Shown in pieces: positions 2,153 through 18,788 of a stretch of 64,000 nt of DNA. Origin of the DNA: Streptomyces erythrochromogenes. GTDB lineage: Bacteria > Actinomycetota > Actinomycetes > Streptomycetales > Streptomycetaceae. Location of the stretch: positions 3,410,001 through 3,474,000 of the forward strand of contig NZ_CP108036.1 of NCBI RefSeq assembly GCF_036170895.1, written 5' to 3'. The notes beneath the pieces were generated by a model. It was not told the origin of the DNA. It made no database searches and was given only the letters and a program-made list of their open reading frames with translations. The position numbers and the translations under genes were made by a program. The number at the start of each line of letters is the position of its first letter. Positions within the stretch are counted from its first letter, which is position 1.

Positions 2153-3043
2153 TTACTGAGCGGCGTTCAGGATCGCGCGGGCGAGCTCGGCGGTCTCGGT
2201 CGGCGTCTTGCCGACCTTGACGCCGGCGGCCTCGAGGGCCTCCTTCTTGGCCTGCGCGGTGCCGGAGGAGCCGGAGACGATGGCGCCGGCGTGGCCCATG
2301 GTCTTGCCCTCGGGGGCGGTGAAGCCCGCGACGTAACCGACGACCGGCTTGGTGACGTTCTTCGCGATGAAGTCCGCCGCGCGCTCCTCGGCGTCGCCGC
2401 CGATCTCGCCGATCATGACGATCAGCTCGGTCTCCGGGTCGGCCTCGAAGGCCTCCAGGGCGTCGATGTGCGTGGTGCCGATGACCGGGTCGCCACCGAT
2501 GCCGACGGCGGAGGTGAAGCCGATGTCACGGAGCTCGTACATCATCTGGTAGGTCAGCGTGCCGGACTTGGACACGAGACCGATCTTGCCGGGCTTGGTG
2601 ATGTCGCCCGGGATGATGCCGGCGTTGGACTGGCCGGGGGTGATCAGACCCGGGCAGTTCGGGCCGATGATGCGGGTCTTGTTGCCCTTGGCGGTCGCGT
2701 ACGCCCAGAAGGCGGCGGAGTCGTGCACCGCGATGCCCTCGGTGATGACGACGGCCAGGGGGATCTCGGCGTCGATGGCCTCGACGACGGCGGCCTTGGC
2801 GAAGGCCGGCGGGACGAAGAGGACGGAGACGTTGGCGCCCGTCTTCTCCATCGCCTCGGCGACGGAGCCGAAGACCGGGACCTCGGTGCCGTCGAAGTCG
2901 ACGGTCGTGCCGGCCTTGCGCGGGTTCACGCCGCCGACGATGTTGGTGCCGTCAGCCAGCATCAGCTTGGTGTGCTTCATGCCCGTGGCACCGGTCATGC
3001 CCTGGACGATGACCTTGCTGTCCTTGTTGAGGAAGATAGCCAT
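2153..3043 (-). CDS. sucD: succinyl-CoA ligase (ADP-forming) subunit alpha
   Basis: 296 aa, normal length for SucD. The alpha subunit binds CoA and carries the phosphohistidine intermediate while succinyl-CoA is converted to succinate with ATP formation in the TCA cycle; it forms a complex with SucC. The N-terminus [18 protein letters not shown] begins a CoA-binding Rossmann domain, [12 protein letters not shown] follows in the middle, and [17 protein letters not shown] near residue 245 holds the active-site His. The start lies 21 bp downstream of the sucC stop, so the two genes form one operon. Confidence 0.97.
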
Positions 3044-3064
3044 GTGAGTCTTTGACCTCTGCCC

Positions 3065-4243
3065 TTACTTCGCAGCCGCGAGCTCGGCGGCCTTGTCGGC
3101 CGCGCCGTCCATGGTGTCCACGCGCTGCACCAGCGGGTGGTTGGCGTCCGAGAGGATCTTGCGACCCAGCTCGGCGTTGTTGCCGTCGAGACGGACGACG
3201 AGCGGCTTGGTGACCGCCTCGCCCTTCTCCTCCAGCAGGGCCAGCGCCTGGACGATGCCGTTGGCGACCTCGTCGCACGCGGTGATGCCACCGAAGACGT
3301 TGACGAAGACGGACTTGACGTCCGGGTCCCCGAGGATGATCTCGAGACCGTTGGCCATGACGGCGGCGGAGGCGCCACCGCCGATGTCCAGGAAGTTGGC
3401 GGGCTTGACGCCACCGTGGTTCTCGCCGGCGTAGGCGACGACGTCCAGGGTGCTCATGACGAGACCCGCGCCGTTGCCGATGATGCCGACCTCACCGTCG
3501 AGCTTGACGTAGTTGAGGTTCTTCGCCTTGGCGGCGGCCTCGAGCGGGTTCGCGGCGGCGTGGTCGACGAACTCCTCGTGACCCGGCTGGCGGAACTCGG
3601 CGTTCTCGTCGAGGGAGACCTTGCCGTCGAGGGCGATGACCTCGCCGGAGGCGACCTTCGCGAGCGGGTTGACCTCGACGAGGAGCGCGTCCTCGGCGAT
3701 GAAGGTGTCCCACAGGGTCACGAGGACCTCGGCGACCTTCTCGGCGACCTCGGCCGGGAACTGCGCCAGCGCGACGATCTCGCGGGCCTTCTCGATGGTC
3801 ACGCCCTCGTTGGCGTTCACCGGGACCTTGGCGAGCTTCTCCGGGGTCTCCTCGGCGACCTGCTCGATGTCCATGCCGCCCGCGACCGAGGCCATGGCCA
3901 GGAAGGTGCGGTTGGTGCGGTCGAGGAGGTACGAGACGTAGTACTCCTCGAGGATCTCGGGAGCGGTCTCCGCGATCATCACCTTGTGGACCGTGTGGCC
4001 CTTGATGTCCATGCCCAGGATGTCCGTCGCGCGGGCGACGGCCTCGTCCGGGGTGGCGGCCAGCTTCACGCCGCCGGCCTTGCCGCGGCCGCCGACCTTC
4101 ACCTGCGCCTTGACGACCGACTTGCCGCCCAGCCGCTCGGTGGCCTCGCGAGCCGCCTCAGGCGTGTCGATGACTTCACCGGCCAGCACCGGTACACCGT
4201 GCTTGGCGAAGAGGTCCCTCGCCTGGTACTCGAACAGGTCCAC
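3065..4243 (-). CDS. sucC: succinyl-CoA ligase (ADP-forming) subunit beta
   Basis: 392 aa, normal for SucC. It begins with [19 protein letters not shown], the ATP-grasp N-terminus, and contains [16 protein letters not shown] (nucleotide binding), VEVNPLAKV (metal binding) and [18 protein letters not shown] (succinate and subunit contact). The start is GTG 4243. It is the promoter-proximal gene of the sucCD operon and partners the alpha subunit in the TCA cycle. Confidence 0.97.
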
Positions 4244-4534: not shown

Positions 4535-5731
4535 TCAGGGGGTCGGCAGGGGCCGCTTCTCCAGCGCCGCGGCCATTACCTCCGGGAACAGGTCGGGCGT
4601 GCAGGCGAAGGCCGGGGCCCCGAGCGCGGCGAGGGCAGCGGCGTGCTCGCGGTCGTAGGCCGGGGCTCCCTCGTCGGACAGCGCCAGCAGGGTCACGAAC
4701 TCGACGCCCGCCCCCTTCATCGCGGCGACCCGCCCCAGCATCTCGTTGCGTATGCCGCCCTCGTAGAGATCACTGATGAGGACGACGACCGTGTCGGCGG
4801 GCCGGGTGATCTTCGACTGGCAGTAGGCGAGGGCCCGGTTGATGTCGGTGCCGCCGCCCAGCTGGGTGCCGAAGAGGACGTCGACCGGGTCGTCGAGCTG
4901 GTCGGTCAGGTCGACGACGGCGGTGTCGAAGACGACCAGGCGGGTGGCGATCGAGCGCATGGAGGCGAGGACCGCGCCGAAGACGGAGGCGTAGACGACG
5001 GAGGCCGCCATCGAACCCGACTGGTCGATGCAGAGGATGACCTCCTTCTTCACCGATTGCGCAGCCCGGCCGTAGCCGATCAGCCGCTCGGGGACGACGG
5101 TGCCGTACTCGGGCAGGTAGTTCTTCAGGTTCGCCCGGATCGTGCGGTCCCAGTCGATGTCGCGGTGGCGGGGACGGCTGATGCGGGCGGAGCGGTCGAG
5201 TGCGCCGGTGAGGGTGTCCCTGGTGCGGGTCGCGAGCCGCTTCTCCAGCTGCTCGACCACCTTGCGGACCACGGCCCGCGCCGTCTCCTTCGTCGTCTCG
5301 GGCATCGCCTTGTTCAGGGAGAGCAGGGTGCCGACCAAATGGACGTCCGGTTCGACGGCCTCCAGCATCTCCGGCTCCAGCAGCAGGGTGGACAGGCCGA
5401 GCCGCTCGATGGCGTCGCGCTGCATCACCTGCACCACCGAGCTCGGGAAGTACGTCCGGATGTCCCCGAGCCAGCGGGCCACGTTCGGCGCGGAGCCGCC
5501 GAGCCCGGCCGACCGCGCCGACCCCGAGGCCCGGCGGGACCCCCCTTCGCCGCCTCCCCCGTACAGCGCACCGAGCGCGGCGTCCATCGCCGCGTCCCGC
5601 CCGGTCAGCGCGTGCCCGGTGCCGTCGGCGTCTCCCCCGCCGAGCACCATCCGCCACCGCCGCAGCCGCTCGCCTCCGGCGGGGTCCGCGGCGTCCTGCC
5701 CGACCGCCGCGCTCATGTCCGTACCGCTCAT
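4535..5731 (-). CDS. VWA-domain protein of a MoxR/DUF5682/SWIM module (YehP-like)
   Basis: 398 aa from ATG 5731, preceded by GGGGGACGG; the upstream in-frame extension to 5770 has no ribosome site. The C-terminal half is a von Willebrand factor A domain with an intact metal site: CIDQSGSMAAS (DxSxS), GGGTDINRAL (Thr) and VVLISDLYEGG (Asp). The N-terminal half is helical and charged (RHRDIDWDRTIRANLKNYLP). MoxR-type ATPases commonly work with VWA proteins, the ATPase remodelling a target that the VWA protein binds through its metal site. It is the last gene of an apparent operon AAA-DUF5682-VWA, starting 46 bp after the DUF5682 stop. The set resembles E. coli yehL-yehM-yehP. No signal peptide is visible, so it is probably cytosolic. 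Confidence 0.85.
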   Translation of the reverse strand: MSGTDMSAAVGQDAADPAGGERLRRWRMVLGGGDADGTGHALTGRDAAMDAALGALYGGGGEGGSRRASGSARSAGLGGSAPNVARWLGDIRTYFPSSVVQVMQRDAIERLGLSTLLLEPEMLEAVEPDVHLVGTLLSLNKAMPETTKETARAVVRKVVEQLEKRLATRTRDTLTGALDRSARISRPRHRDIDWDRTIRANLKNYLPEYGTVVPERLIGYGRAAQSVKKEVILCIDQSGSMAASVVYASVFGAVLASMRSIATRLVVFDTAVVDLTDQLDDPVDVLFGTQLGGGTDINRALAYCQSKITRPADTVVVLISDLYEGGIRNEMLGRVAAMKGAGVEFVTLLALSDEGAPAYDREHAAALAALGAPAFACTPDLFPEVMAAALEKRPLPTP

Positions 5732-5777
5732 CCGTCCGTCCCCCTGCACTCGTCGTACTCGTCGTTGCACCGCACTC

Positions 5778-8069
5778 TCAGGCGGCTGCCACCCCGTCGG
5801 GAGACGCCAGCAGTATCCGGACCAGCTCCGTCACCGCGTCCGCCCGCAAGGGGTCCAGGTCGGGGGCGAAGCCCTCGGGGGCCGAGCCCGTCGCGCGCGC
5901 CGCCCCCGCGGAGGCGGCCGGGCCGCGCCGGACCAGTTCGCCCAGGGTCCGCTTCACCCCCGGCTCGTACGCCCCGAACGTCCGCCTCAGCAGCGGGAGC
6001 ACGTCGGTGAAGGCGCGCTCCGGCACCCCCACCAGCCAGCTGTCGATCAGGCCCAGCAGCCGGTCGTCGTGGACCAGCAGGGTGCCGCCGCCCGAACTCC
6101 CGCCCGCGAAGCCCTCGATCCAGCCCGCCGCGTCGGCGGGCGAGGCGGCCGGGGACAGCGCGAGCCCCATCAGCCGGGCCGTCTCCTCGGCCTCCAGCCG
6201 TCCGTCGTCGAGGAGCAACCGGGCCGCCCTGCCCCGGATGACGCCCGGCACGGTGTCCCGGGCCGCCAGCGTCCGCAGCACCGCGGACCAGCGTTCCCGC
6301 AGCCCGTCGCCGGTGTCCGCCAGCAGGCCGACCGCCGTGTGCACCCCGTCGACGTGGCCGCGCAGCTCCGCCGCCGCGTCGCCGTCCAGGCCGGCCGCGC
6401 AGGCCGGCGGGAGTGCGACGCATATCCGCTCGGCGAGCCCGGCCGCAACCGCGCCGAGCGCCGTCGCGTCGGTGCCCCGCACGTCCCCGTACCGCAGTGA
6501 ACGGGCGAGCGCCGGCAGGGCCTTGGCGAGCCGGGCGACGTCGGTGTCCAGCGCGGCGCGGTCCGCGAGGGCCCGCAGTACGGCCGGCAGCGCCTCGGAC
6601 AGCCCGGCCAGGAGGCACCGCTCGGCCAGCGCCGTGACCTCGCCCAGTTCCTCGGCGCCCGCGGCGTCCGCCTCCGCCTTGGCGGTGGCCGCCGCGAGGA
6701 CGGTGGTGCCCCAGATCCCGGCCTCGGCCACCCGCACGGACAGCTCCGGCTCCCAGCGCAGCCGCCAGGTCTCCCGGAAGGTGCCGGTGCTGCTGCGGGA
6801 GGCGGCCGGGGTGCCCCAGCCGATGCCGAGCAGCCGCAGCCGGTGCAGCAGCAGGGACTTCGCGGCGTCGGTGTCCTTGCGCAGGTCGAGTTCCAGCTCG
6901 CGTTCCTGCGCCTCGGCCTTGAGCCGCAGCGACCGCTGCTGCCGCGTCAGGTCCCGCTGGAGCGGTACGACGGGTGCCGCGTCCGGGACCTCGCCGAGCA
7001 CGTCGCCGACGACGAGGCGGTCCTCGATGAGCGTGAGCGGTACGTCGGAGCCGTCGCACATCACCGCCCGGACCGCTTCCAGCGTCTCCGTCAGGCCGGG
7101 CAGGGGCCTGCCCCGCATGGCGGCCAGGGTCTCGGCCAGCCGCACCGCCTCGATGGCGTGGGCCGAGGAGACCTGCCGGTCCTCCTCGCGCAGCAGGCCG
7201 GCGACCTTGGTCAGCCACCGCTCGACGGGCCGGTCCCGGGCGGAGAAGAGGTGGGCGTACCAGCCGGGCGAGGTGATCCCCGCGCCGTACCCGCCGGCCC
7301 GGGCGAGCCGGCGGTGCGTCCACGGCACCCAGGTGGTCTCCACCTTGACCTTCGCCAGTCCGGTCAGCAGCGCCTTGTCGGCGGCCACGGTGGTCTTCGC
7401 CCGCAGCGCCGGGACGTGCCAGGCACCGCACACGACGGCGTACCCGTCGCCGAACTCGCGGCGGGCGGCGCGCATCCGCTGCCGCATGTACGCCTCGCGC
7501 ACCAGGTCGCGGCGGTGGCCGCCGTCGCCGTACGTCTCGCGCAGGGCTCCCATGGCCTCCCCGAGCGCCTCGAACGCGCCCAGCGCCTCCTCCCCCGCGC
7601 CGCCGCTGCCCCGGTGCTCGACCACGTCCTCCCACCAGCGCTCGGGGTCGTCGTACCCGGCGGTCTCGGCGAGCACCGCGAGGGGGTCCAGCCGGACCGC
7701 GTCGGGCTCGGCGTGGTCCGCGTCCGGCTCCCCGGCGGCGGCCAGCGAGTGCGCGGCGGGCAGGTCCATGAACCGGACCGGTACCCCGGCCTCCTGCGCC
7801 CAGCGGATCGCCACCCACTCCGGGGAGAAGTCGGCGAGCGGCCAGAACGCGGCCCGGCCCGGGTCGTCCGCGGCGTGCGCGAGCAGGGCCACGGGCGGCC
7901 GCATGCCGGGGTCGGCGGCCAGTTCGAGCAGGGCGTCCCCTTCGGGCGGCCCCTCGATCAGCACGGCCGCCGGGCGGGCCGCGTCCAGGGCGGAGCGGAC
8001 CGCGCGGGCCGATCCGGGCCCGTGGTGGCGCACGCCGAGGAGCAGCGGGCCCTGTCGGGCGGTGCTCAT
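5778..8069 (-). CDS. DUF5682 family protein (YehM-like)
   Basis: 763 aa from ATG 8069, which overlaps the stop of the upstream ATPase gene by 4 bp (ATGA), implying translational coupling. The N-terminus MSTARQGPLLLGVRHHGPGS with PAAVLIEGPPEGD is the signature of DUF5682; GVRHHGPGS suggests a ligand- or metal-binding loop, and an analogy to TraB/ChaN-like folds is only my guess. A second conserved stretch, YAVVCGAWHVPAL followed by RAKTTVAADKAL, lies near residues 215-240. The rest is Ala/Leu-rich helical sequence. There is no signal peptide or clear membrane segment. The biochemical activity is unknown. The fixed company of a MoxR ATPase, a VWA protein and a SWIM protein suggests a shared complex. 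Confidence 0.85.
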   Translation of the reverse strand: MSTARQGPLLLGVRHHGPGSARAVRSALDAARPAAVLIEGPPEGDALLELAADPGMRPPVALLAHAADDPGRAAFWPLADFSPEWVAIRWAQEAGVPVRFMDLPAAHSLAAAGEPDADHAEPDAVRLDPLAVLAETAGYDDPERWWEDVVEHRGSGGAGEEALGAFEALGEAMGALRETYGDGGHRRDLVREAYMRQRMRAARREFGDGYAVVCGAWHVPALRAKTTVAADKALLTGLAKVKVETTWVPWTHRRLARAGGYGAGITSPGWYAHLFSARDRPVERWLTKVAGLLREEDRQVSSAHAIEAVRLAETLAAMRGRPLPGLTETLEAVRAVMCDGSDVPLTLIEDRLVVGDVLGEVPDAAPVVPLQRDLTRQQRSLRLKAEAQERELELDLRKDTDAAKSLLLHRLRLLGIGWGTPAASRSSTGTFRETWRLRWEPELSVRVAEAGIWGTTVLAAATAKAEADAAGAEELGEVTALAERCLLAGLSEALPAVLRALADRAALDTDVARLAKALPALARSLRYGDVRGTDATALGAVAAGLAERICVALPPACAAGLDGDAAAELRGHVDGVHTAVGLLADTGDGLRERWSAVLRTLAARDTVPGVIRGRAARLLLDDGRLEAEETARLMGLALSPAASPADAAGWIEGFAGGSSGGGTLLVHDDRLLGLIDSWLVGVPERAFTDVLPLLRRTFGAYEPGVKRTLGELVRRGPAASAGAARATGSAPEGFAPDLDPLRADAVTELVRILLASPDGVAAA

Positions 8070-9172
8070 GCCGTCACCTCCCGGCAGGCCCTGTAGAAGT
8101 CCTTCCAGCCGTCGCGCTCGCGGACCACGGCCTCCAGGTACTCCTGCCAGACCACCTTGTCGGCCGCCGGGTCGCGGACGACGGCGCCGAGGATGCCCGC
8201 GGCCACGTCGGAGGGGCGCAGGACGCCGTCCCCGAAGTGGGCTGCCAGGGCGAGGCCGTTGGTGACGACGGAGATGGCCTCGGCGGTGGAGAGGGTGCCG
8301 CTGGGCGACTTCACCTTCGTGCGGCCGTCGCCGGTGACGCCGTCGCGCAGCTCGCGGAAGACGGTGACGACGCGGCGGATCTCCTCCAGTCCCTCGGGCA
8401 CGGCCGGCAGGTCGAGGGCGCGGCCCATCTGGTCGACGCGGCGGGCCACGATGTCGACCTCGGCGTCCGCGGTGGCGGGCAGCGGCAGGACGACGGTGTT
8501 GAAGCGGCGGCGCAGCGCGCTGGAGAGCTCGTTGACGCCGCGGTCGCGGTCGTTGGCGGTGGCGATGAGGTTGAAGCCGCGTACGGCCTGGACCTCTTGG
8601 CCGAGCTCCGGTATCGGCAGGGTCTTCTCGGACAGGACGGTGATGAGGGTGTCCTGGACGTCGGCGGGGATGCGGGTGAGCTCCTCGACGCGGGCGGTCA
8701 TGCCGTCGGCCATGGCCCGCATGACGGGGCTGGGGACGAGCGCCTCGCGGCTGGGGCCGTGGGCGAGGAGCCGGGCGTAGTTCCAGCCGTACCGGATGGC
8801 CTCCTCGGGGGTGCCGGCGGTGCCCTGCACGAGGAGGGTGGAGTCCCCGCTGACGGCGGCCGCGAGGTGTTCGGACACCCAGGTCTTGGCGGTGCCGGGA
8901 ACGCCGAGCAGGAGCAGGGCGCGGTCGGTGGCCAGGGTGGTGACCGCGACCTCGACGATGCGGCGCGGGCCCACGTACTTGGGTGTGATCACCGTGCCGT
9001 CGTCGAGCGTGCCACCGAGCAGGTAGGTGGCGACGGCCCACGGGGAGAGCTTCCAGCGGGTCGGGCGAGGCCTGTCGTCGGCGGCCGCCAGGGCTTTCAG
9101 TTCGTGCGCGTAGGCGTCTTCGGCGTGCGGTCGCAGCGCCTCGGCACCGATGCCGTTCTCGGGCTTGCTCAT
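8066..9172 (-). CDS. MoxR-type AAA+ ATPase (YehL-like)
   Basis: 368 aa from ATG 9172 with GAGGGGGACC upstream; 28 extra in-frame codons upstream lack a ribosome site. Walker A is GVPGTAKT (residues 90-97). The Walker B region is unusual, ARVEELTR (160-167), with Val before two Glu instead of the common hhhhDE. Sensor 1 is NLIATANDRDRG with Asn207, and an arginine-finger candidate is SSALRRRF (217-224). MoxR-type ATPases are chaperone-like hexamers that act with VWA partners; the VWA gene is two genes downstream. It is the first gene of the leftward operon. The control region is shared with the divergent SWIM gene. Confidence 0.88.
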   Translation of the reverse strand: MSKPENGIGAEALRPHAEDAYAHELKALAAADDRPRPTRWKLSPWAVATYLLGGTLDDGTVITPKYVGPRRIVEVAVTTLATDRALLLLGVPGTAKTWVSEHLAAAVSGDSTLLVQGTAGTPEEAIRYGWNYARLLAHGPSREALVPSPVMRAMADGMTARVEELTRIPADVQDTLITVLSEKTLPIPELGQEVQAVRGFNLIATANDRDRGVNELSSALRRRFNTVVLPLPATADAEVDIVARRVDQMGRALDLPAVPEGLEEIRRVVTVFRELRDGVTGDGRTKVKSPSGTLSTAEAISVVTNGLALAAHFGDGVLRPSDVAAGILGAVVRDPAADKVVWQEYLEAVVRERDGWKDFYRACREVTA

Positions 9173-9297
9173 GGTCCCCCTCCAATGCTCGGCAGCCGCT
9201 CCCGACTGCTGTTCCAACGGTGCACCACGCCACTGACAACACCCCGTGCTCATCACGTTGTTGCAGGTCAGAGCGATTGTCAGAGGGGGTCTCTACG
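9173..9297. promoter_or_regulatory. shared divergent control region of the MoxR and SWIM genes
   Basis: This 125-bp spacer separates the two arms of the module. CTGACAA (9233-9239) and TTGTCAG (9277-9283) form a widely spaced inverted repeat that brackets the middle of the region, so a dimeric regulator could control both directions. I could not assign -35/-10 boxes with certainty. The right repeat ends against the AGAGGGGG ribosome site of the SWIM gene. Confidence 0.4.
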
Positions 9298-10650
9298 GTG
9301 GTTTCCATGACTGAGCAGGGGGTCCGCTGGACGGCGGAACAGGTACTGGCTCTGGCTCCTGACGATGCTTCACGCAAGGCGGGCGGCAGACTCGGAGGAG
9401 CGGGGCCGTGGTCACAGATCGGAGGTTCCGCTTCCGGTTCTGTGTGGGGGCTGTGCAAGGGCAGCGGCAGCAATCCGTACCGGACGGTCGTCGACCTGAC
9501 GGGACCGGCCTACAAGTGCTCCTGCCCGAGCCGGAAGTTCCCGTGCAAGCACGCGCTGGGACTGCTCCTGCTCTGGTCCGCCGAGGGGGTCGGCGAGCCC
9601 GGGGAGGCGCCGGACTGGGCCGCGCAGTGGCTGGCGGACCGGGCGGCCAAGGCCGCACGTCCGGCGGGCGCGGCCGCCGGGCCGGTGGACGAGGAGGGGG
9701 CCCGGCGGCGGGCCGAGCGGCGGGCGGCGCGCATCGGCGCGGGCGTCACCGAGCTGGAACAGCGGCTGGCCGACCTGCTGCGCGGCGGCCTCGCGGGCCA
9801 GGAGCACGCGGGGTACGCGGCGTGGGAGGAGACCGCGGCCCGGATGGTGGACGCCCAGGCGCCCGGACTGGCCGGGCGCGTAAGGGAGTTGGGGACGATA
9901 CCCAGTTGCGGCCCCGGCTGGCCCGCCCGGATGCTGGAGGAGGCGGCGCTGCTGCACCTGCTGGACCGGGCCTGGATGGGGGTGACGGGGCTTCCGGACC
10001 AGTTGGCGGCGACCGTGCGCAACCGGGTGGGACTGCCGGCCTCCGGGGAGGGGGAGGCCGTACGGGACCGCTGGCTGGTGCTCGCCCAGTACGACTCGGT
10101 GTCGCCGGACGGTCGGCTCACCACCCGCCGGATATGGCTGCGCGGGCTGGCGGGCGGACGGCCCGCGCTGGTGCTGGACTTCGGACCGCCCGGGCGGCCG
10201 CCGGGGCTGGCGCTGCCGGTGGGGCTGGTGCTGGAGGCGGAGATGCGCTTCCGGCCCGGGTCGGCGGGGCTGCGGGCGGACCTCGGGGAGAGGTTCGCGG
10301 CGGCCGCGCCGTGCACGGAGGTTCCGGCCGGGGTGGGCACGCAGGCGGCCCTGGAGGCCTACGGGGCGGCGCTGCGGGACGACCCGTGGCTGGAGTCCTG
10401 GCCGGTGGTGCTCGGTCCGGTGGTTCCGATACCGGGAGAGCTCGGCTGGCAGCTGGCGGACGCGGAGGGCACCTCCGCCCTGCCGGTGCCCCTCACCGGG
10501 GCGGGCAGCCGCTCCCGCGGGGGTCTGTGGCAGCTGGCCGCACTGTCGGGCGGGGGCCCGGTGACGGTCTTCGGCGAGTGCGGCCACCGCGGCTTCACTC
10601 CGCTGACGGCCTGGCAGCCGGACTCCTCGGAGCCGGTCGCCCTGTCCTGA
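9298..10650 (+). CDS. SWIM zinc-finger protein (YehQ-like)
   Basis: 450 aa from GTG 9298, chosen because AGAGGGGG (9282-9289) is correctly spaced for it; the ATG at 9307 would be about 17 nt from that site. The SWIM motif CxCx6CxH is intact: CSCPSRKFPCKH with C74, C76, C83 and H85, inside the typical context YRTVVDLTGPAYKCSC. SWIM domains bind zinc and are thought to contact DNA or protein partners. The remaining 350 residues have no motif I recognise beyond similarity to SWIM proteins encoded beside MoxR/VWA genes. It runs opposite to the ATPase operon and is followed by DUF5691, so the five genes look like one functional unit. Confidence 0.87.
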   Translation: MVSMTEQGVRWTAEQVLALAPDDASRKAGGRLGGAGPWSQIGGSASGSVWGLCKGSGSNPYRTVVDLTGPAYKCSCPSRKFPCKHALGLLLLWSAEGVGEPGEAPDWAAQWLADRAAKAARPAGAAAGPVDEEGARRRAERRAARIGAGVTELEQRLADLLRGGLAGQEHAGYAAWEETAARMVDAQAPGLAGRVRELGTIPSCGPGWPARMLEEAALLHLLDRAWMGVTGLPDQLAATVRNRVGLPASGEGEAVRDRWLVLAQYDSVSPDGRLTTRRIWLRGLAGGRPALVLDFGPPGRPPGLALPVGLVLEAEMRFRPGSAGLRADLGERFAAAAPCTEVPAGVGTQAALEAYGAALRDDPWLESWPVVLGPVVPIPGELGWQLADAEGTSALPVPLTGAGSRSRGGLWQLAALSGGGPVTVFGECGHRGFTPLTAWQPDSSEPVALS

Positions 10651-10659
10651 GCCGGGCGG

Positions 10660-10793
10660 GAACGACAACCACATCGCAGGGGGCCTGGGGGGTCCTGTGC
10701 CGTCGCACGGCGGCGGCAGGGAGAAGTGCGGCGCCGGGGGGCGCCGTACACGCAACGACGAGAAGCCGGGGGGCTTTCATGAACGACAACCAC
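10660..10793 (+). repeat. 13-bp direct repeat between SWIM and DUF5691 genes
   Basis: GAACGACAACCAC occurs at 10660-10672 and again at 10781-10793. The second copy sits inside an 8-codon ATG...TGA reading frame (10779-10802, MNDNHAS) that follows a GGGGGG stretch. This may be a duplication or two protein-binding sites. I see no proof that the mini-ORF is translated. Confidence 0.4.
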
Positions 10794-10826
10794 GCCAGTT
10801 GAGCGGACCCGTACGGGACATCGACA

Positions 10827-10859
10827 GCCCCGGTCCCGCGGAGGGGGCGGGACCGGGGC
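10827..10859 (+). terminator. hairpin upstream of the DUF5691 gene
   Basis: A perfect 13-bp stem (10827-10839 with 10847-10859) and a 7-nt purine loop lie between the SWIM gene and the DUF5691 start. It could terminate SWIM transcription or reduce read-through, which would lower DUF5691 expression relative to SWIM. Confidence 0.55.
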
Positions 10860-10900
10860 ACTGGACACCACCGAGGACGAGCAGCGAGGGAGGGGCACCG

Positions 10901-12487
10901 ATGGGCGAGGGTGACGAGGGGTACGGGGAGTGGCAGGAGCTGGTCGGTGCCGCGCTGCTGGGCACCGACCGGCGCCGGGGCGGGGGCCCGGCCGGCTCGC
11001 CGGAGGCGCTGCTGGACGCGGCGGCCGTGCACACCGTGCGCCGCCGCGCCGGCTTGCGGCCGGCGGGGGCGCGCCCGCGGCCGGAGCCCGCGCCCCGCGA
11101 CCCCCGGCCGGCACCGCCGGAGGCGGCGGGCCGCCGGCTCGCACAACTGCTGGCTGGCCGCACCGGCGCCGGCAGCGGGGGCGGCGGCGGGCGGCGCGGA
11201 TCGGCCCCGGATCTGACGGAGCTGCTGCCGCAGTGGCTGGCCGCGGCCGCACGGCACGGCTACCGCGCGCCCGCAGCGCTCGTACCGGCGCTCCTGGACG
11301 CCGCCCGGGCCCGTACGGACCTGCGCCCGCAGGCTCTGGCCCTGGCCGGGACGCGGGGACTGTGGCTGGCACGGATGAATCCGGACTGGCGGTTCGCCCT
11401 GCGCGGCGGGGCGGGCGGCGGGGAACTGCCGGACGTGACCGACCCGTCCGCGGTCGAACGGCTCTGGGAGGAAGGGCTGTTCGCGGAGCGCGTGGCACTG
11501 CTCGGTGCCGTACGGGCCCATGAGCCGGCGGCCGCGCCGCGGCTGCTGGCGACGACCTGGGGGAGCGAACGGGCCGAGGACCGGCTGATGTTCCTCGACT
11601 CGCTGAGGGTGGGGCTGTCCCTGGAGGACGAGCCCTTCCTGGAGGCGGCGCTGGGCGATCGCAGCCGCAATGTCCGCGCGACGGCCGCCGAACTGCTGTC
11701 GGCGCTGCCGCAGTCGGCGCTGGCGGGCCGGATGGCCGAGCGCGCACTGGCCTGCGTGGGACCGGAGGGGGTGGCCCCGCCGGCCGAGTGCGACGGGGGG
11801 ATGCTCCGCGACGGCGTGGTCAAGCGGCCGCCCGCCGGACGCGGAGAGCGGGCCTGGTGGCTCGGCCAGCTGGTGGAGGCGGCTCCGCTGTCGTGCTGGC
11901 GGGAGCGGTTCGGGGGCCTGGGCCCGGCGGAGATCGTGGCACTGCCGGTGGCCACGGCCGAGGGCTGGACGGAGGAACTGCACGCGGCGTGGTGCCGGGC
12001 GGCGGTGCGCCAGCGGGACCCGGACTGGTCGCGGGCCCTGCTCGGCCCTGCGTCCGCGCCGCCCGCGGCGGGTCCGGGCACGGCGTCGCTCGCGGAGCGG
12101 GCCAAACTGCTGGAGACCCTCCCCGACGGGGAACGGGCCGAGTGGGTGGCGGAGTTCGTCCGGGCGCACGGGCTGTCCGAGGCCTTCCAGCTGCTCGGGG
12201 TGTGCGTGGTGCCGTGGGCGGGCGCGCTGGGCCGCGCCGTGGTGGACGCGCTGGACATCGCCCGGGAGGCCGGCAGCTACCCGTGGAGCTTCAGCGGGGT
12301 GATGGGCCTGGCCGAACGCTGCCTCGACCCTTCCGAGGCCGGCCGGCTCGAGGCCCTGACCGCGGCCGCGGAGGAACCGCCGGACGCGTCGCCGGGCGCG
12401 GCCGCGTACTGGGCCGAGGCCTTCCAGCGGCTGGTGGCCACGCTCCGGCTGCGCGCGGCGATGCTGTCGGAGCTCGCCCCGGCCTGA
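10901..12487 (+). CDS. DUF5691 family protein
   Basis: 528 aa from ATG 10901 with GAGGGAGGGG upstream. The opening EWQELVGAALLGTDRR is typical of DUF5691. Around residues 225-290 are helical repeats like HEAT units (LMFLDSLRVGLSLEDEPFLE, then NVRATAAELLSALPQS), which suggests an alpha-helical scaffold. No enzymatic motif, signal peptide or membrane span is visible. It lies downstream of the SWIM gene in the same direction, separated by 250 bp holding a hairpin. I infer a structural or adaptor role in the MoxR/VWA module; the function is not known. Confidence 0.83.
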   Translation: MGEGDEGYGEWQELVGAALLGTDRRRGGGPAGSPEALLDAAAVHTVRRRAGLRPAGARPRPEPAPRDPRPAPPEAAGRRLAQLLAGRTGAGSGGGGGRRGSAPDLTELLPQWLAAAARHGYRAPAALVPALLDAARARTDLRPQALALAGTRGLWLARMNPDWRFALRGGAGGGELPDVTDPSAVERLWEEGLFAERVALLGAVRAHEPAAAPRLLATTWGSERAEDRLMFLDSLRVGLSLEDEPFLEAALGDRSRNVRATAAELLSALPQSALAGRMAERALACVGPEGVAPPAECDGGMLRDGVVKRPPAGRGERAWWLGQLVEAAPLSCWRERFGGLGPAEIVALPVATAEGWTEELHAAWCRAAVRQRDPDWSRALLGPASAPPAAGPGTASLAERAKLLETLPDGERAEWVAEFVRAHGLSEAFQLLGVCVVPWAGALGRAVVDALDIAREAGSYPWSFSGVMGLAERCLDPSEAGRLEALTAAAEEPPDASPGAAAYWAEAFQRLVATLRLRAAMLSELAPA

Positions 12488-15940: not shown

Positions 15941-18457
15941 TCAGAGCTTCTGCACCGGCGCGTACCGCAGCAGCAGCCGCTTCGGCTTGTCGTCGCCGAA
16001 GTCGATGGTGGCCTGCGCGTCCGCGCCCGCTCCCTTGACCTCCATGACGGTGCCGAGCCCGAACTGGTCGTGCGTGACCCGGTCCCCGACCACCAGCGCG
16101 ATGACGGGCTTGTCCGCGGCCCGGCGCGTCGCGAACCCGGACGGGCCCGACTTCGTACGCGACGAGGACAGGAAGGCCTCGGGCGAGGTGCCGAACGAGG
16201 ACCGTCCGCCGCCCGAGCCCGAGCCGTAGCCCGAACTGCGCATCGGGCCGGCCGGCTTCTGGGCCGCCCCCGTGCGCTTCCACTGCAGGTACTGGTCCGG
16301 GATCTCCTCCAGGAACCGCGACGGCGGGTTGTACGAGGGGGTGCCCCACGCACTGCGCATGCTGGACCGGGTCAGGTACAGCCGCTCGCGCGCACGCGTG
16401 ATGCCGACGTAGGCGAGGCGGCGCTCCTCCTCCAGCTCCTTGGTCTGGCCCAGCGCGCGCATGTGCGGGAAGACCCCGTCCTCCATGCCGGTCAGGAAGA
16501 CCACCGGGAACTCCAGGCCCTTGGCGGTGTGCAGGGTCATGAGGGTGATGACGCCGGAGCCGTCCTCGTCCTCGTCGGGGATCTGGTCGGAGTCGGCGAC
16601 GAGGGCGACCTGCTCCAGGAACTCGGCGAGCGTGCCGGGACCGGCCGGCGCCGTGCCCTCCGGCGCCTCGGCGGCCGCGGCATCCCGCGCCTGCTCGAAC
16701 TCCAGCGCCACGGCGGCCAGTTCTTGGAGGTTCTCGATCCGGGTCTCGTCCTGCGGGTCGGTCGAGGCCTGGAGTTCGGCGAGGTAGCCGGTGCGCTCCA
16801 GGACCGCTTCCAGCACCACCGCCGGGCCGGCGCCCGAGTCGACGATCGTACGGAGCTCCTCCATCAGCGCGTTGAACCGCTTCACGGCGTTGGTGGAGCG
16901 GGCCGCCATGCCGAAGGCCTCGTCGACGCGCCGCAGCGCCTGCGGGAAGGTGATCTTCTCGCGCAGCGCGAGCGCGTCGACCATCGCCTCGGCGCGCTCG
17001 CCGATGCCGCGCTTGGGCACGTTCAGGATGCGGCGCAGCGGGACGTTGTCCTCCGGGTTCGCGAGGACGCGCAGGTACGCGAGGACGTCGCGGACCTCCT
17101 TGCGCTCGTAGAAGCGGACGCCGCCGACGACCTTGTACGGCAGGCCGACCCGGATGAAGATCTCCTCGAACACGCGGGACTGGGCGTTGGTCCGGTAGAA
17201 GATCGCGACGTCGCCGGCCTTGGCGTCCCCGGCGTCGGTGAGCCGGTCGATCTCGTCGGCGACGAACTGGGCCTCGTCGTGCTCGGTGTCCGCGACGTAG
17301 CCGGTGATGACGGCGCCGCTGCCGGCCTGGGTCCACAGGTTCTTGGCGCGGCGGTTCTCGTTGCGCTCGATGACGGCGTTGGCGGCGGAGAGGATCGTCT
17401 GCGTGGAGCGGTAGTTCTGCTCCAGCAGGATCGTCGTCGCGTCCTTGTAGTCCTCCTCGAACTGGAGGATGTTGCGGATCGTCGCGCCGCGGAAGGCGTA
17501 GATCGACTGGTCGGCGTCACCCACCACGCACAGCTCGGCCGGGGGCAGGTCCGGGTAGCCGGTGCCGACCAGCTCGCGCACCAGCGTGTACTGCGCGTGG
17601 TTGGTGTCCTGGTACTCGTCGACCAGGACGTGCCGGAAGCGGCGCCGGTAGTGCTCGGCGACGTCCGGGAAGGCCTGGAGCAGGTGCACCGTGGTCATGA
17701 TGATGTCGTCGAAGTCGAGGGCGTTGGCCTCGCGCAACCGCGCCTGGTACATCGCGTACGCCTGGGCGAGCGTCTTCTCGAAACCGTCGGCAGCCTGGTC
17801 GGCGAAGGCCTCTTCGTCTATCAGCTCGTTCTTCAGGTTCGAGATCTTGGCGTTGAAGGACTTCGGCGGGAACTTCTTCGGGTCCAGGTCCAGGTCGCGG
17901 CAGACGAGCGCCATCAGGCGCTTCGAGTCGGCCGCGTCGTAGATCGAGAACGAGGACGTGAAACCGAGCCGCTTGGACTCGCGGCGCAGTATGCGCACGC
18001 ACGCGCTGTGGAAGGTGGAGACCCACATGGCGTTGGCGCGCGGGCCGACCAGGCCCTCGACGCGCTCCTTCATCTCGCCGGCGGCCTTGTTGGTGAAGGT
18101 GATCGCCAGGATCTGGCCGGGGTGGACGTTCCGGGCGGCCAGCAGGTGCCCGATCCGGTGGGTCAGCACCCTGGTCTTGCCGGAGCCGGCGCCGGCCACG
18201 ATGAGCAGCGGGGAGCCCGCGTGCACCACGGCGGCGGCCTGCTGCTCGTTCAGGCCGTCCAGGAGCGTCGCCGGGTCGATGACGGGCTTGGGGGCGCCGT
18301 CCCGGTAGTACGCGTCCCCGGTCATGGGCACGTCGAAGTGGCCCCCGAAGAGGTCGTCCGCACCCGCCTCCGGGGCGGGGTGCTCCTCGGGCGGCGGCGG
18401 GACCTCGTCGGAGGGGGTGAGGTCCGCCAGGAAGCTGTCGTCAAAGAGGCTGCTCAT
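15941..18457 (-). CDS. pcrA: ATP-dependent 3'-5' DNA helicase PcrA/UvrD
   Basis: 838 aa. All superfamily 1 motifs can be seen in order: LNEQQAAAVVHAGSPLLIVA (Q motif), GAGSGKT (Walker A, near residue 90), ITFTNKAAGEMKERV (Ia), VDEYQDTNHAQY (Walker B), VVGDADQSIYAFRGA (III), EQNYRST (IV), TLHTAKGLEFPVVFLTGMED (V) and VGITRARERLYL (VI). The acidic, Pro-rich first 60 residues are a common actinobacterial extension, and a C-terminal Tudor-like segment (VGDRVTHDQFGLGTVMEV) may bind RNA polymerase. It acts in nucleotide excision repair and conflict resolution. The start overlaps the end of the ArsR gene by 17 bp. Confidence 0.96.
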   Translation of the reverse strand: MSSLFDDSFLADLTPSDEVPPPPEEHPAPEAGADDLFGGHFDVPMTGDAYYRDGAPKPVIDPATLLDGLNEQQAAAVVHAGSPLLIVAGAGSGKTRVLTHRIGHLLAARNVHPGQILAITFTNKAAGEMKERVEGLVGPRANAMWVSTFHSACVRILRRESKRLGFTSSFSIYDAADSKRLMALVCRDLDLDPKKFPPKSFNAKISNLKNELIDEEAFADQAADGFEKTLAQAYAMYQARLREANALDFDDIIMTTVHLLQAFPDVAEHYRRRFRHVLVDEYQDTNHAQYTLVRELVGTGYPDLPPAELCVVGDADQSIYAFRGATIRNILQFEEDYKDATTILLEQNYRSTQTILSAANAVIERNENRRAKNLWTQAGSGAVITGYVADTEHDEAQFVADEIDRLTDAGDAKAGDVAIFYRTNAQSRVFEEIFIRVGLPYKVVGGVRFYERKEVRDVLAYLRVLANPEDNVPLRRILNVPKRGIGERAEAMVDALALREKITFPQALRRVDEAFGMAARSTNAVKRFNALMEELRTIVDSGAGPAVVLEAVLERTGYLAELQASTDPQDETRIENLQELAAVALEFEQARDAAAAEAPEGTAPAGPGTLAEFLEQVALVADSDQIPDEDEDGSGVITLMTLHTAKGLEFPVVFLTGMEDGVFPHMRALGQTKELEEERRLAYVGITRARERLYLTRSSMRSAWGTPSYNPPSRFLEEIPDQYLQWKRTGAAQKPAGPMRSSGYGSGSGGGRSSFGTSPEAFLSSSRTKSGPSGFATRRAADKPVIALVVGDRVTHDQFGLGTVMEVKGAGADAQATIDFGDDKPKRLLLRYAPVQKL

Positions 18458-18788
18458 CGCATTCCGAGTCTAGGGGGCGGGACCGACAGGCCAGCACGAG
18501 TTCCAGCAGACCGGGGAAGCGGAGCTCCAGGTCGTCGCGGCGCAGCGCGAGGTAGAGCCTGCGGCCCTGGGCGCGCCGGCAGATGACTCCGCTCTCCCGC
18601 AGCGTCTTGAGGTGGTGCGTGACGCTCGACCGGGGCAGGTCGGGCACGACCTCGCCGCAGAAGGCCTCCTCGCCGGAGGCGAGCTTGCGGACGATCTCCA
18701 GCCGGACGGGGTGCCCGAGCGCAGCCAGGACGTCGACGAGCTGGAGCCGGTCGGCGGCGGGGTGGGGCAGGTCGGCGGCGGCAGGCAT
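18441..18788 (-). CDS. ArsR-family transcriptional regulator
   Basis: 115 aa from ATG 18788; a GTG at 18797 adds three residues and could be the true start. The winged helix-turn-helix is clear: LAALGHPVRLEIVRKLA, then FCGEVVPDLPRSSVTHHLKT and the wing CRRAQGRRLYLALR. A single Cys near FCGE and another near the end do not form the classic metal site, so the inducer is unknown. Its 3' end overlaps the pcrA start, so the regulator may be co-transcribed with pcrA. It is divergent from a small membrane protein, its most likely target. Confidence 0.87.
   Translation of the reverse strand: MPAAADLPHPAADRLQLVDVLAALGHPVRLEIVRKLASGEEAFCGEVVPDLPRSSVTHHLKTLRESGVICRRAQGRRLYLALRRDDLELRFPGLLELVLACRSRPLDSECDEQPL

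Follow-up and report, generated by a model that had tools for sequence, protein, structure and literature searches.

A MoxR–DUF5682–VWA module of Streptomyces with PafBC-type promoter sites and a predicted TIKI-type domain

What do five neighboring genes that flank a short divergent spacer in Streptomyces erythrochromogenes do together? The genes encode a MoxR AAA+ ATPase, a DUF5682 protein, a VWA protein, a SWIM zinc-finger protein, and a DUF5691 protein, and lie in a 64,000-nucleotide stretch of the 8.6-Mb genome (NZ_CP108036.1, 3,410,001–3,474,000), which we term the window and whose positions are used below. A first-pass annotation of the DNA had read them as one MoxR–VWA machine related to E. 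coli yehL-yehM-yehP, with a possible role in stress or phage defense. We find that the five genes are a real module, and we favor, with some reserve, the view that their products form a single protein-handling machine, driven by ATP, that serves the DNA-damage response, an assignment in which the fold and the promoter are computed and the induction, hydrolysis, and substrate are what we infer. New here are the predicted TIKI-type domain in DUF5682 and a DNA-damage-type promoter on a MoxR–VWA module. All five genes are present and had been correctly named, as judged by Pfam, and the features that the argument draws on are as follows.

4535–5731, minus strand: VWA protein (VWA_CoxE, Pfam E 3.2e-60), a YehP relative with the MIDAS motif DxSxS
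5778–8069, minus strand: DUF5682 protein (Pfam E 1.7e-288), a YehM relative with a predicted TIKI-fold N-domain and a long helical part
7170–8069, minus strand: predicted TIKI/TraB-fold N-domain of DUF5682, residues 1–300, with conserved H15, H16, E39, R191, and H218
8066–9172, minus strand: MoxR AAA+ ATPase of the YehL type (AAA_5, E 6.5e-37), in which the Walker A and Walker B motifs, sensor 1, and the Arg finger are all found
9173–9306: putative divergent promoter spacer of 134 bp with two TTGTCAG arms facing outward, from the sequence and an alignment of Streptomyces spacers
9217–9239, minus strand: partial PafBC-type element toward MoxR, which keeps TTGTCAGTG and has CACCGT rather than TANNNT at −10 (one mismatch to the strict form defined below)
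9278–9299, plus strand: PafBC-type element TGTCAG-N10-TA-N3-T toward SWIM-DUF5691, an exact match to the published core
9307–10650, plus strand: SWIM zinc-finger protein (CxC...CxH; Pfam SWIM E 2.8e-6)
10901–12487, plus strand: DUF5691 protein (Pfam E 2e-165), perhaps made of helical repeats (HEAT E 0.062)

The MoxR and DUF5682 genes overlap by four bases (8066–8069, ATGA), as previously read, and the spacer, which had been given as 125 bp, measures 134 bp when counted between the ATG starts of MoxR (9172) and SWIM (9307). The open frame of DUF5691 spans 10697–12487 on the plus strand; because its Pfam match begins only at residue 81, we place the probable start codon near 10901. The suggestion that DUF5691 is a helical adaptor finds a faint echo in the HEAT match.

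PafBC mediates RecA-independent DNA-damage regulation, and the spacer carries candidate PafBC-type elements. An alignment of Streptomyces spacers, from which one locus with an empty spacer (L058) was left out, reveals two outward TTGTCAGTG arms. As a first search motif we used TTGTCNGTG-N8-TANNNT, which we take to be the strict form of the PafBC motif, and both arms lie within one mismatch of it in all 28 Streptomyces loci. The promoter core of M. tuberculosis is TGTCGG or TGTCAG-N10-TA-N3-T in the available part of the source (PMC8151990), and our published-core counts accordingly use TGTC[AG]G-N10-TA-N3-T, leaving aside a third variant, TGTCAC, also named there. This core is found upstream of SWIM in 26 of 27 testable Streptomyces loci, the window included, and in 7 of 21 other Actinomycetota (these counts exclude L071, and the count for other phyla given below excludes seven loci). 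When all actinobacterial loci are pooled, 63 core sites compare with 0 matches to the reversed pattern in 2.32 million strand-bases.

The Streptomyces relatives of the module come in four forms, all built on a constant MoxR–DUF5682–VWA core around which the other parts vary.

Type A: the form found in the window
Type B: a DUF4132 gene, a giant gene, MoxR, and DUF5682 fused to VWA (L004, L042, and L043)
Type C: WGR-DUF4132, MoxR, DUF5682, VWA, and SWIM, the E. coli yeh form (L044–L047)
Type D: two genes without a Pfam match, VWA, MoxR, and a diverged DUF5682 (L048–L052)

The published core precedes the modules of types B, C, and D in 11 of the 12 Streptomyces loci, and the other strand carries it in none. 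That four divergent module types have the same rare element is what most strongly suggests function here. The MoxR and VWA proteins of type C are 54 to 64% identical to YehL and YehP, and in one type D locus (L050) the two opening genes, neither with a Pfam match, encode 167 and 473 residues. The second module of the genome that harbors the window is of type B (L004:9242-15567 and L006, G000:C1:521242-532300); it comprises a DUF5682–VWA fusion, MoxR, a 1696-residue protein without a Pfam match, and DUF4132, and one of the strict sites described next lies upstream.

This genome contains 83 core sites versus 9 in controls. Two fall in the window, one at SWIM and one at the pcrA/uvrD helicase gene (15941–18457, minus strand), where the site at 18467–18488 on the same strand lies 9 bp upstream of the open frame. 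Strict sites number 20, with 0 in controls. Assigning to each site the longest downstream frame with a start no more than 320 nt away, we scanned 13 of the 20 frames by Pfam; these include RecA, PolA, UvrC, DnaX, uracil-DNA glycosylase, and a RecD2-type HHH protein. The same genome encodes a pafB-pafC-like pair, a WYL+WCX gene next to an HTH_PafC+WYL+WCX gene, in a locus that also contains Pup, two Pup-ligase, and two proteasome genes. All 13 Streptomyces genomes examined carry the strict motif, with 339 sites versus 5 in the reversed control. The mycobacterial PafBC regulon has this promoter core, recA, and uvrC in common with the set described here (PMC8223512, in its available part), and the accessible portions of the PafBC regulon papers contain no mention that we found of a MoxR–DUF5682 module. 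In D. radiodurans, one DUF4132 protein and one WGR protein, both of kinds that partner this module family, are under the damage regulator DdrO and are upregulated with mitomycin C, according to the part of PMC8533742 available. We conclude that in Streptomyces the module probably belongs to a DNA-damage regulon.

Some strict sites precede genes that are of interest in their own right. Two of them (L155, G000:C1:6132065, and L161, G000:C1:8117510) precede stand-alone WGR plus beta-propeller-like and DUF4132 genes. Two others (L143, G000:C1:116157, and L162, G000:C1:8382353) each precede the same gene, found at mirror positions near both chromosome ends and probably present as terminal repeat copies; its product has DprA-type winged-helix and SWIM matches under the cut-off.

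Turning to the proteins, structure prediction gave a DUF5682 model with a pLDDT of 89.3 and an N-domain model with a pLDDT of 87.6. When the N-domain model is compared with PDB structures, the 11 best-ranked entries all belong to the TIKI superfamily: complex IV chains (taken as the TraB-family subunit), ChaN, HopBA1, EreC, BcR135-type, and RRSP. The core fold of ChaN, BcR135, HopBA1, the Ere enzymes, and RRSP is recovered in the model, in which H15 and H16 follow a strand at 9–13, E39 follows a strand at 35–38, and H218 follows a strand at 210–215; together with R191, these residues are kept in 80 to 81 of 81 type A, 3/3 type B, 6/6 type C, and 5/5 type D sequences. The set expected of a TIKI protein, a His-Glu pair, a second His, and a conserved basic residue, is thus present by position, with roles as given in the available part of PMC6254334, and the order His, Glu, Arg, His is common to DUF5682 and the TIKI/TraB/ChaN/erythromycin esterase superfamily. 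DUF5682 differs from that superfamily in its lack of a sequence-level match, its tie to an AAA+/VWA machine, and its long helical part. The model makes it very likely that the N-domain has a TIKI/TraB-type fold, an enzyme-like feature that the first-pass annotation missed; that DUF5682 is an active hydrolase we hold slightly more likely than not.

The partners conserve the motifs of a MoxR–VWA pair. Walker A is found in 103/103 and the Walker B region in 102/103 MoxR sequences, and the MIDAS motif DxSxS is present in all 88 VWA sequences checked. A GGGT motif is retained in 71 of 74 type A, 6 of 6 type C, 2 of 5 type D, and 0 of 3 type B VWA proteins, and a loose pattern for the third MIDAS motif matches 70 of 74 in type A, 1 of 6 in type C, and none in types B or D. 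The VWA metal sites outside types A and C may therefore differ, or the third-motif pattern may be too narrow. CxC..CxH is present in 74 of 81 SWIM homologues.

In the mechanism that we propose, single-stranded DNA would activate PafBC, and transcription of the module would accompany that of recA, polA, uvrC, ung, and pcrA. The MoxR ring, linked to its target via the VWA protein, would open protein or strip it from damaged DNA or repair complexes and hand it to DUF5682 for hydrolysis or cleavage, with SWIM and DUF5691 (WGR-DUF4132 in other types) steering the machine to its target. We are least sure of the hydrolysis itself and of the substrate, for which our leading guess, proteins crosslinked or stuck on DNA, is a long shot. 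By analogy, the module might be a functional counterpart of eukaryotic Cdc48/p97 with Wss1/SPRTN, in which a damage-induced AAA+–VWA ring would feed proteins crosslinked to DNA or stuck on it to a new TIKI-type protease, DUF5682, the targeting parts (SWIM-DUF5691 or WGR-DUF4132) being interchangeable; we regard this fuller picture as speculative and unlikely to hold in all its parts.

A number of results pull against a DNA-damage machine with an enzymatic DUF5682. On the promoter side, the right arm of the spacer fits the published core and not the stricter GTG form, reading GAG instead. The core is missing upstream of MoxR in all 28 Streptomyces loci (0/28) because the −10 reads CA, not TA, which makes induction of MoxR-DUF5682-VWA less sure than that of SWIM-DUF5691. 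Among the 12 Streptomyces loci of types B to D, L049 is the one exception, with a degenerate site only, and a type C-like locus of another family (L041) has no PafBC-type site. Upstream of SWIM, 14 of 21 other Actinomycetota lack the core, as do all of the 31 loci from other phyla that could be tested, and a search there for exact LexA and RDRM patterns gave no match; the machine may thus be older than its link to damage, which actinobacteria could have added. Among the 13 frames scanned behind strict sites, two have no Pfam match and others are not repair genes (WGR, DUF4132, YjbR, a VWA match, and a DprA-type/SWIM match under the cut-off). WGR and DUF4132 are among the module's partner families, which are thus met again behind this motif. 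On the protein side, TIKI membership is by fold only, with a best Foldseek E of 4.8e-3 for the N-domain; no TIKI family was found by sequence profile among the 25 families listed out of 26 (48 members, E up to 1), and a PDB sequence search with E up to 10 returned three sequences, none of them a TIKI match.

The co-occurrence of the five families bears on whether they do one job. Of 61 Streptomyces genomes, 60 have DUF5682 and 58 have DUF5691, and in the 58 with both, the two genes lie within 6 kb on opposite strands in 55 and on different contigs in 3. Among 149 Actinomycetota genomes, 10 harbor DUF5682, 9 of these also harbor DUF5691 over the cut-off, and none has DUF5691 over the cut-off without DUF5682 (Fisher p 1.3e-13, with two sub-cut-off DUF5691 matches, G048 and G146, scored absent). 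A scan with a MoxR alignment, at one genome per species, confirmed 212 loci, of which we analyzed the best 80; the ranking was by likeness to type A MoxR, so types B to D are under-sampled outside Streptomyces. The DUF5682 homologues listed are 120 of 7986, and among them proteins named from Streptomyces erythrochromogenes are 95 to 98% identical to the window protein. These best 80 loci are found in Actinomycetota, Chloroflexota, Cyanobacteria, Bacteroidota, Proteobacteria, Planctomycetota, Acidobacteriota, and others; the families do recur together outside Streptomyces, contrary to the rarity there that the first-pass annotation said would refute it.

Outside Streptomyces, 41 of 56 loci are a one-strand cassette, SWIM-DUF5691-MoxR-DUF5682-VWA, followed in three cases by a DUF4132 gene. 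The remaining 15 comprise 11 shorter pieces in the same order, one locus with SWIM-DUF5691 after VWA (L130), and three lone MoxR genes (L093, L109, and L123). The genomes with lone MoxR genes have both DUF5682 and DUF5691 elsewhere, which argues for a common job over mere neighborhood. In Streptomyces, 20 of 24 loci have the divergent layout and the other four are partial, and we read this layout as a Streptomyces inversion of SWIM and DUF5691 within a one-way operon.

The E. coli region yehI-yehK-yehL-yehM-yehP-yehQ contains related MoxR, DUF5682, and VWA genes in the same order, with a SWIM gene next. The claim that E. coli encodes the same protein types stands for YehL (41% identity over 356 residues), YehM (29%), and YehP (36%). 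It fails for DUF5691, whose profile has no match in the E. coli control genome, and for a YehQ-like SWIM protein, since the window SWIM protein shows no similarity to YehQ by BLASTP (best E 0.50). Unlike the window, the yeh region has a DUF4132 gene (yehI). PafBC is not known from E. coli, and Streptomyces type C, which is the yeh form, differs in carrying PafBC-type sites. Within the MoxR family, the 41% identity and the AAA_5 match would place the window protein with the YehL subfamily, which is named as such and set apart from RavA in the available part of PMC3893208.

Could the module instead mature an enzyme? MoxR and VWA proteins might serve a dedicated enzyme by loading its metal or cofactor or by assembling it, as do CoxD for CO dehydrogenase, NorQ, and RavA-ViaA, leaving DUF5682 as client or scaffold. 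RavA-ViaA of E. coli has in common with the module a MoxR ATPase and a VWA partner; the window MoxR, however, is nearest YehL, and DUF5682, SWIM, and DUF5691 are extra. None of the NCBIfam profiles exceeds its cut-off on the five proteins, and the ViaA equivalog and cobaltochelatase models fall far short (19.1 versus 500 and 13.5 versus 779 bits). What is kept together is the five genes, in data not searched systematically for a further conserved enzyme gene, and those genes behind the promoter motif that could be identified serve mainly in DNA repair, so we judge maturation rather unlikely. A catalytically dead DUF5682 of TIKI fold, in a machine that merely unfolds or moves proteins during the damage response, is a little less probable still. 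It would have precedent in PMT, a TIKI-superfamily protein without catalytic residues (PMC6254334, in its available part), and in the TraB-family match, an accessory subunit of Tetrahymena complex IV (PMC10060162, likewise). The second Glu of RRSP may also be lacking: where the 2His/2Glu set, in the same account of PMC6254334, has a Glu two positions ahead of the first His, simple counting gives DUF5682 an Arg (Arg14, two positions ahead of H16). Yet the five residues from H15 to H218 are fixed in types A to D even though the window DUF5682 is only 29% identical to one type C and 34% to one type B protein, beyond what a scaffold would need.

The phage-defense part of the earlier proposal is not supported; a stress role is, specifically in DNA damage, by the PafBC-type sites. 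MoxR-vWA ternary conflict systems exist, with a MoxR ATPase and vWA core like that of the module (PMC7159879, whose main text does not name yeh, SWIM, TIKI, or TraB), accessory parts are swapped among the module types, and MoxR relatives (E 1e-30 or better) occur in 40 of 72,556 plasmid records, some of them chromosome-sized. Against this, Pfam finds no VMAP, iSTAND, FtsH, or beta-propeller third component among the five proteins (bpMoxR scores 23.4 bits, under the cut-off of 27) and no effector attached to the window VWA protein, which is a CoxE-like domain alone; the best PADLOC match has an E of 0.012. In contrast to the ternary systems, the module has a DNA-damage-type promoter and a stable chromosomal place: it is present in 58 to 60 of 61 Streptomyces genomes, in the window sucD and sucC (succinyl-CoA ligase, 2153–4243, minus strand) flank it on one side and pcrA lies two genes beyond it on the other, and tblastn across 27 other Streptomyces loci, several cut short by contig edges, finds sucD in 21, sucC in 22, and pcrA in 22. 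A MoxR relative is found in 1 of 50,697 phage records. A conflict or phage-defense system is hence very improbable, and the module in Streptomyces looks like a core locus, not a defense island. The single phage record (MT835988), a 14-kb “Bacteriophage sp.” entry whose MoxR is 53% identical to that of the window, is perhaps a bacterial contig.

The protein-handling machine of the DNA-damage response that we favor appears to be new to the literature searched: among 5.39 million openly licensed papers none names DUF5682 or DUF5691, and none of the papers listed links the module to DNA damage, in a search that most subscription papers lay outside. The module is widespread, near-universal in sampled Streptomyces, present in many phyla, and with its core found in E. 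coli K-12, and the data give it a testable job in the DNA-damage response, an enzyme-like center (H16, E39, and H218), and a promoter site. The strict-motif counts also bear on whether Streptomyces has a PafBC-type response, a question raised by PMC9380542, where, in the part available, an initial search is said to have suggested a lack of conservation of the PafBC motif in S. venezuelae, and Streptomyces is described as still awaiting proof of a response independent of RecA/LexA. If the comparison with Cdc48/p97 is true, a system of that kind would occur in many bacterial phyla, E. coli included.

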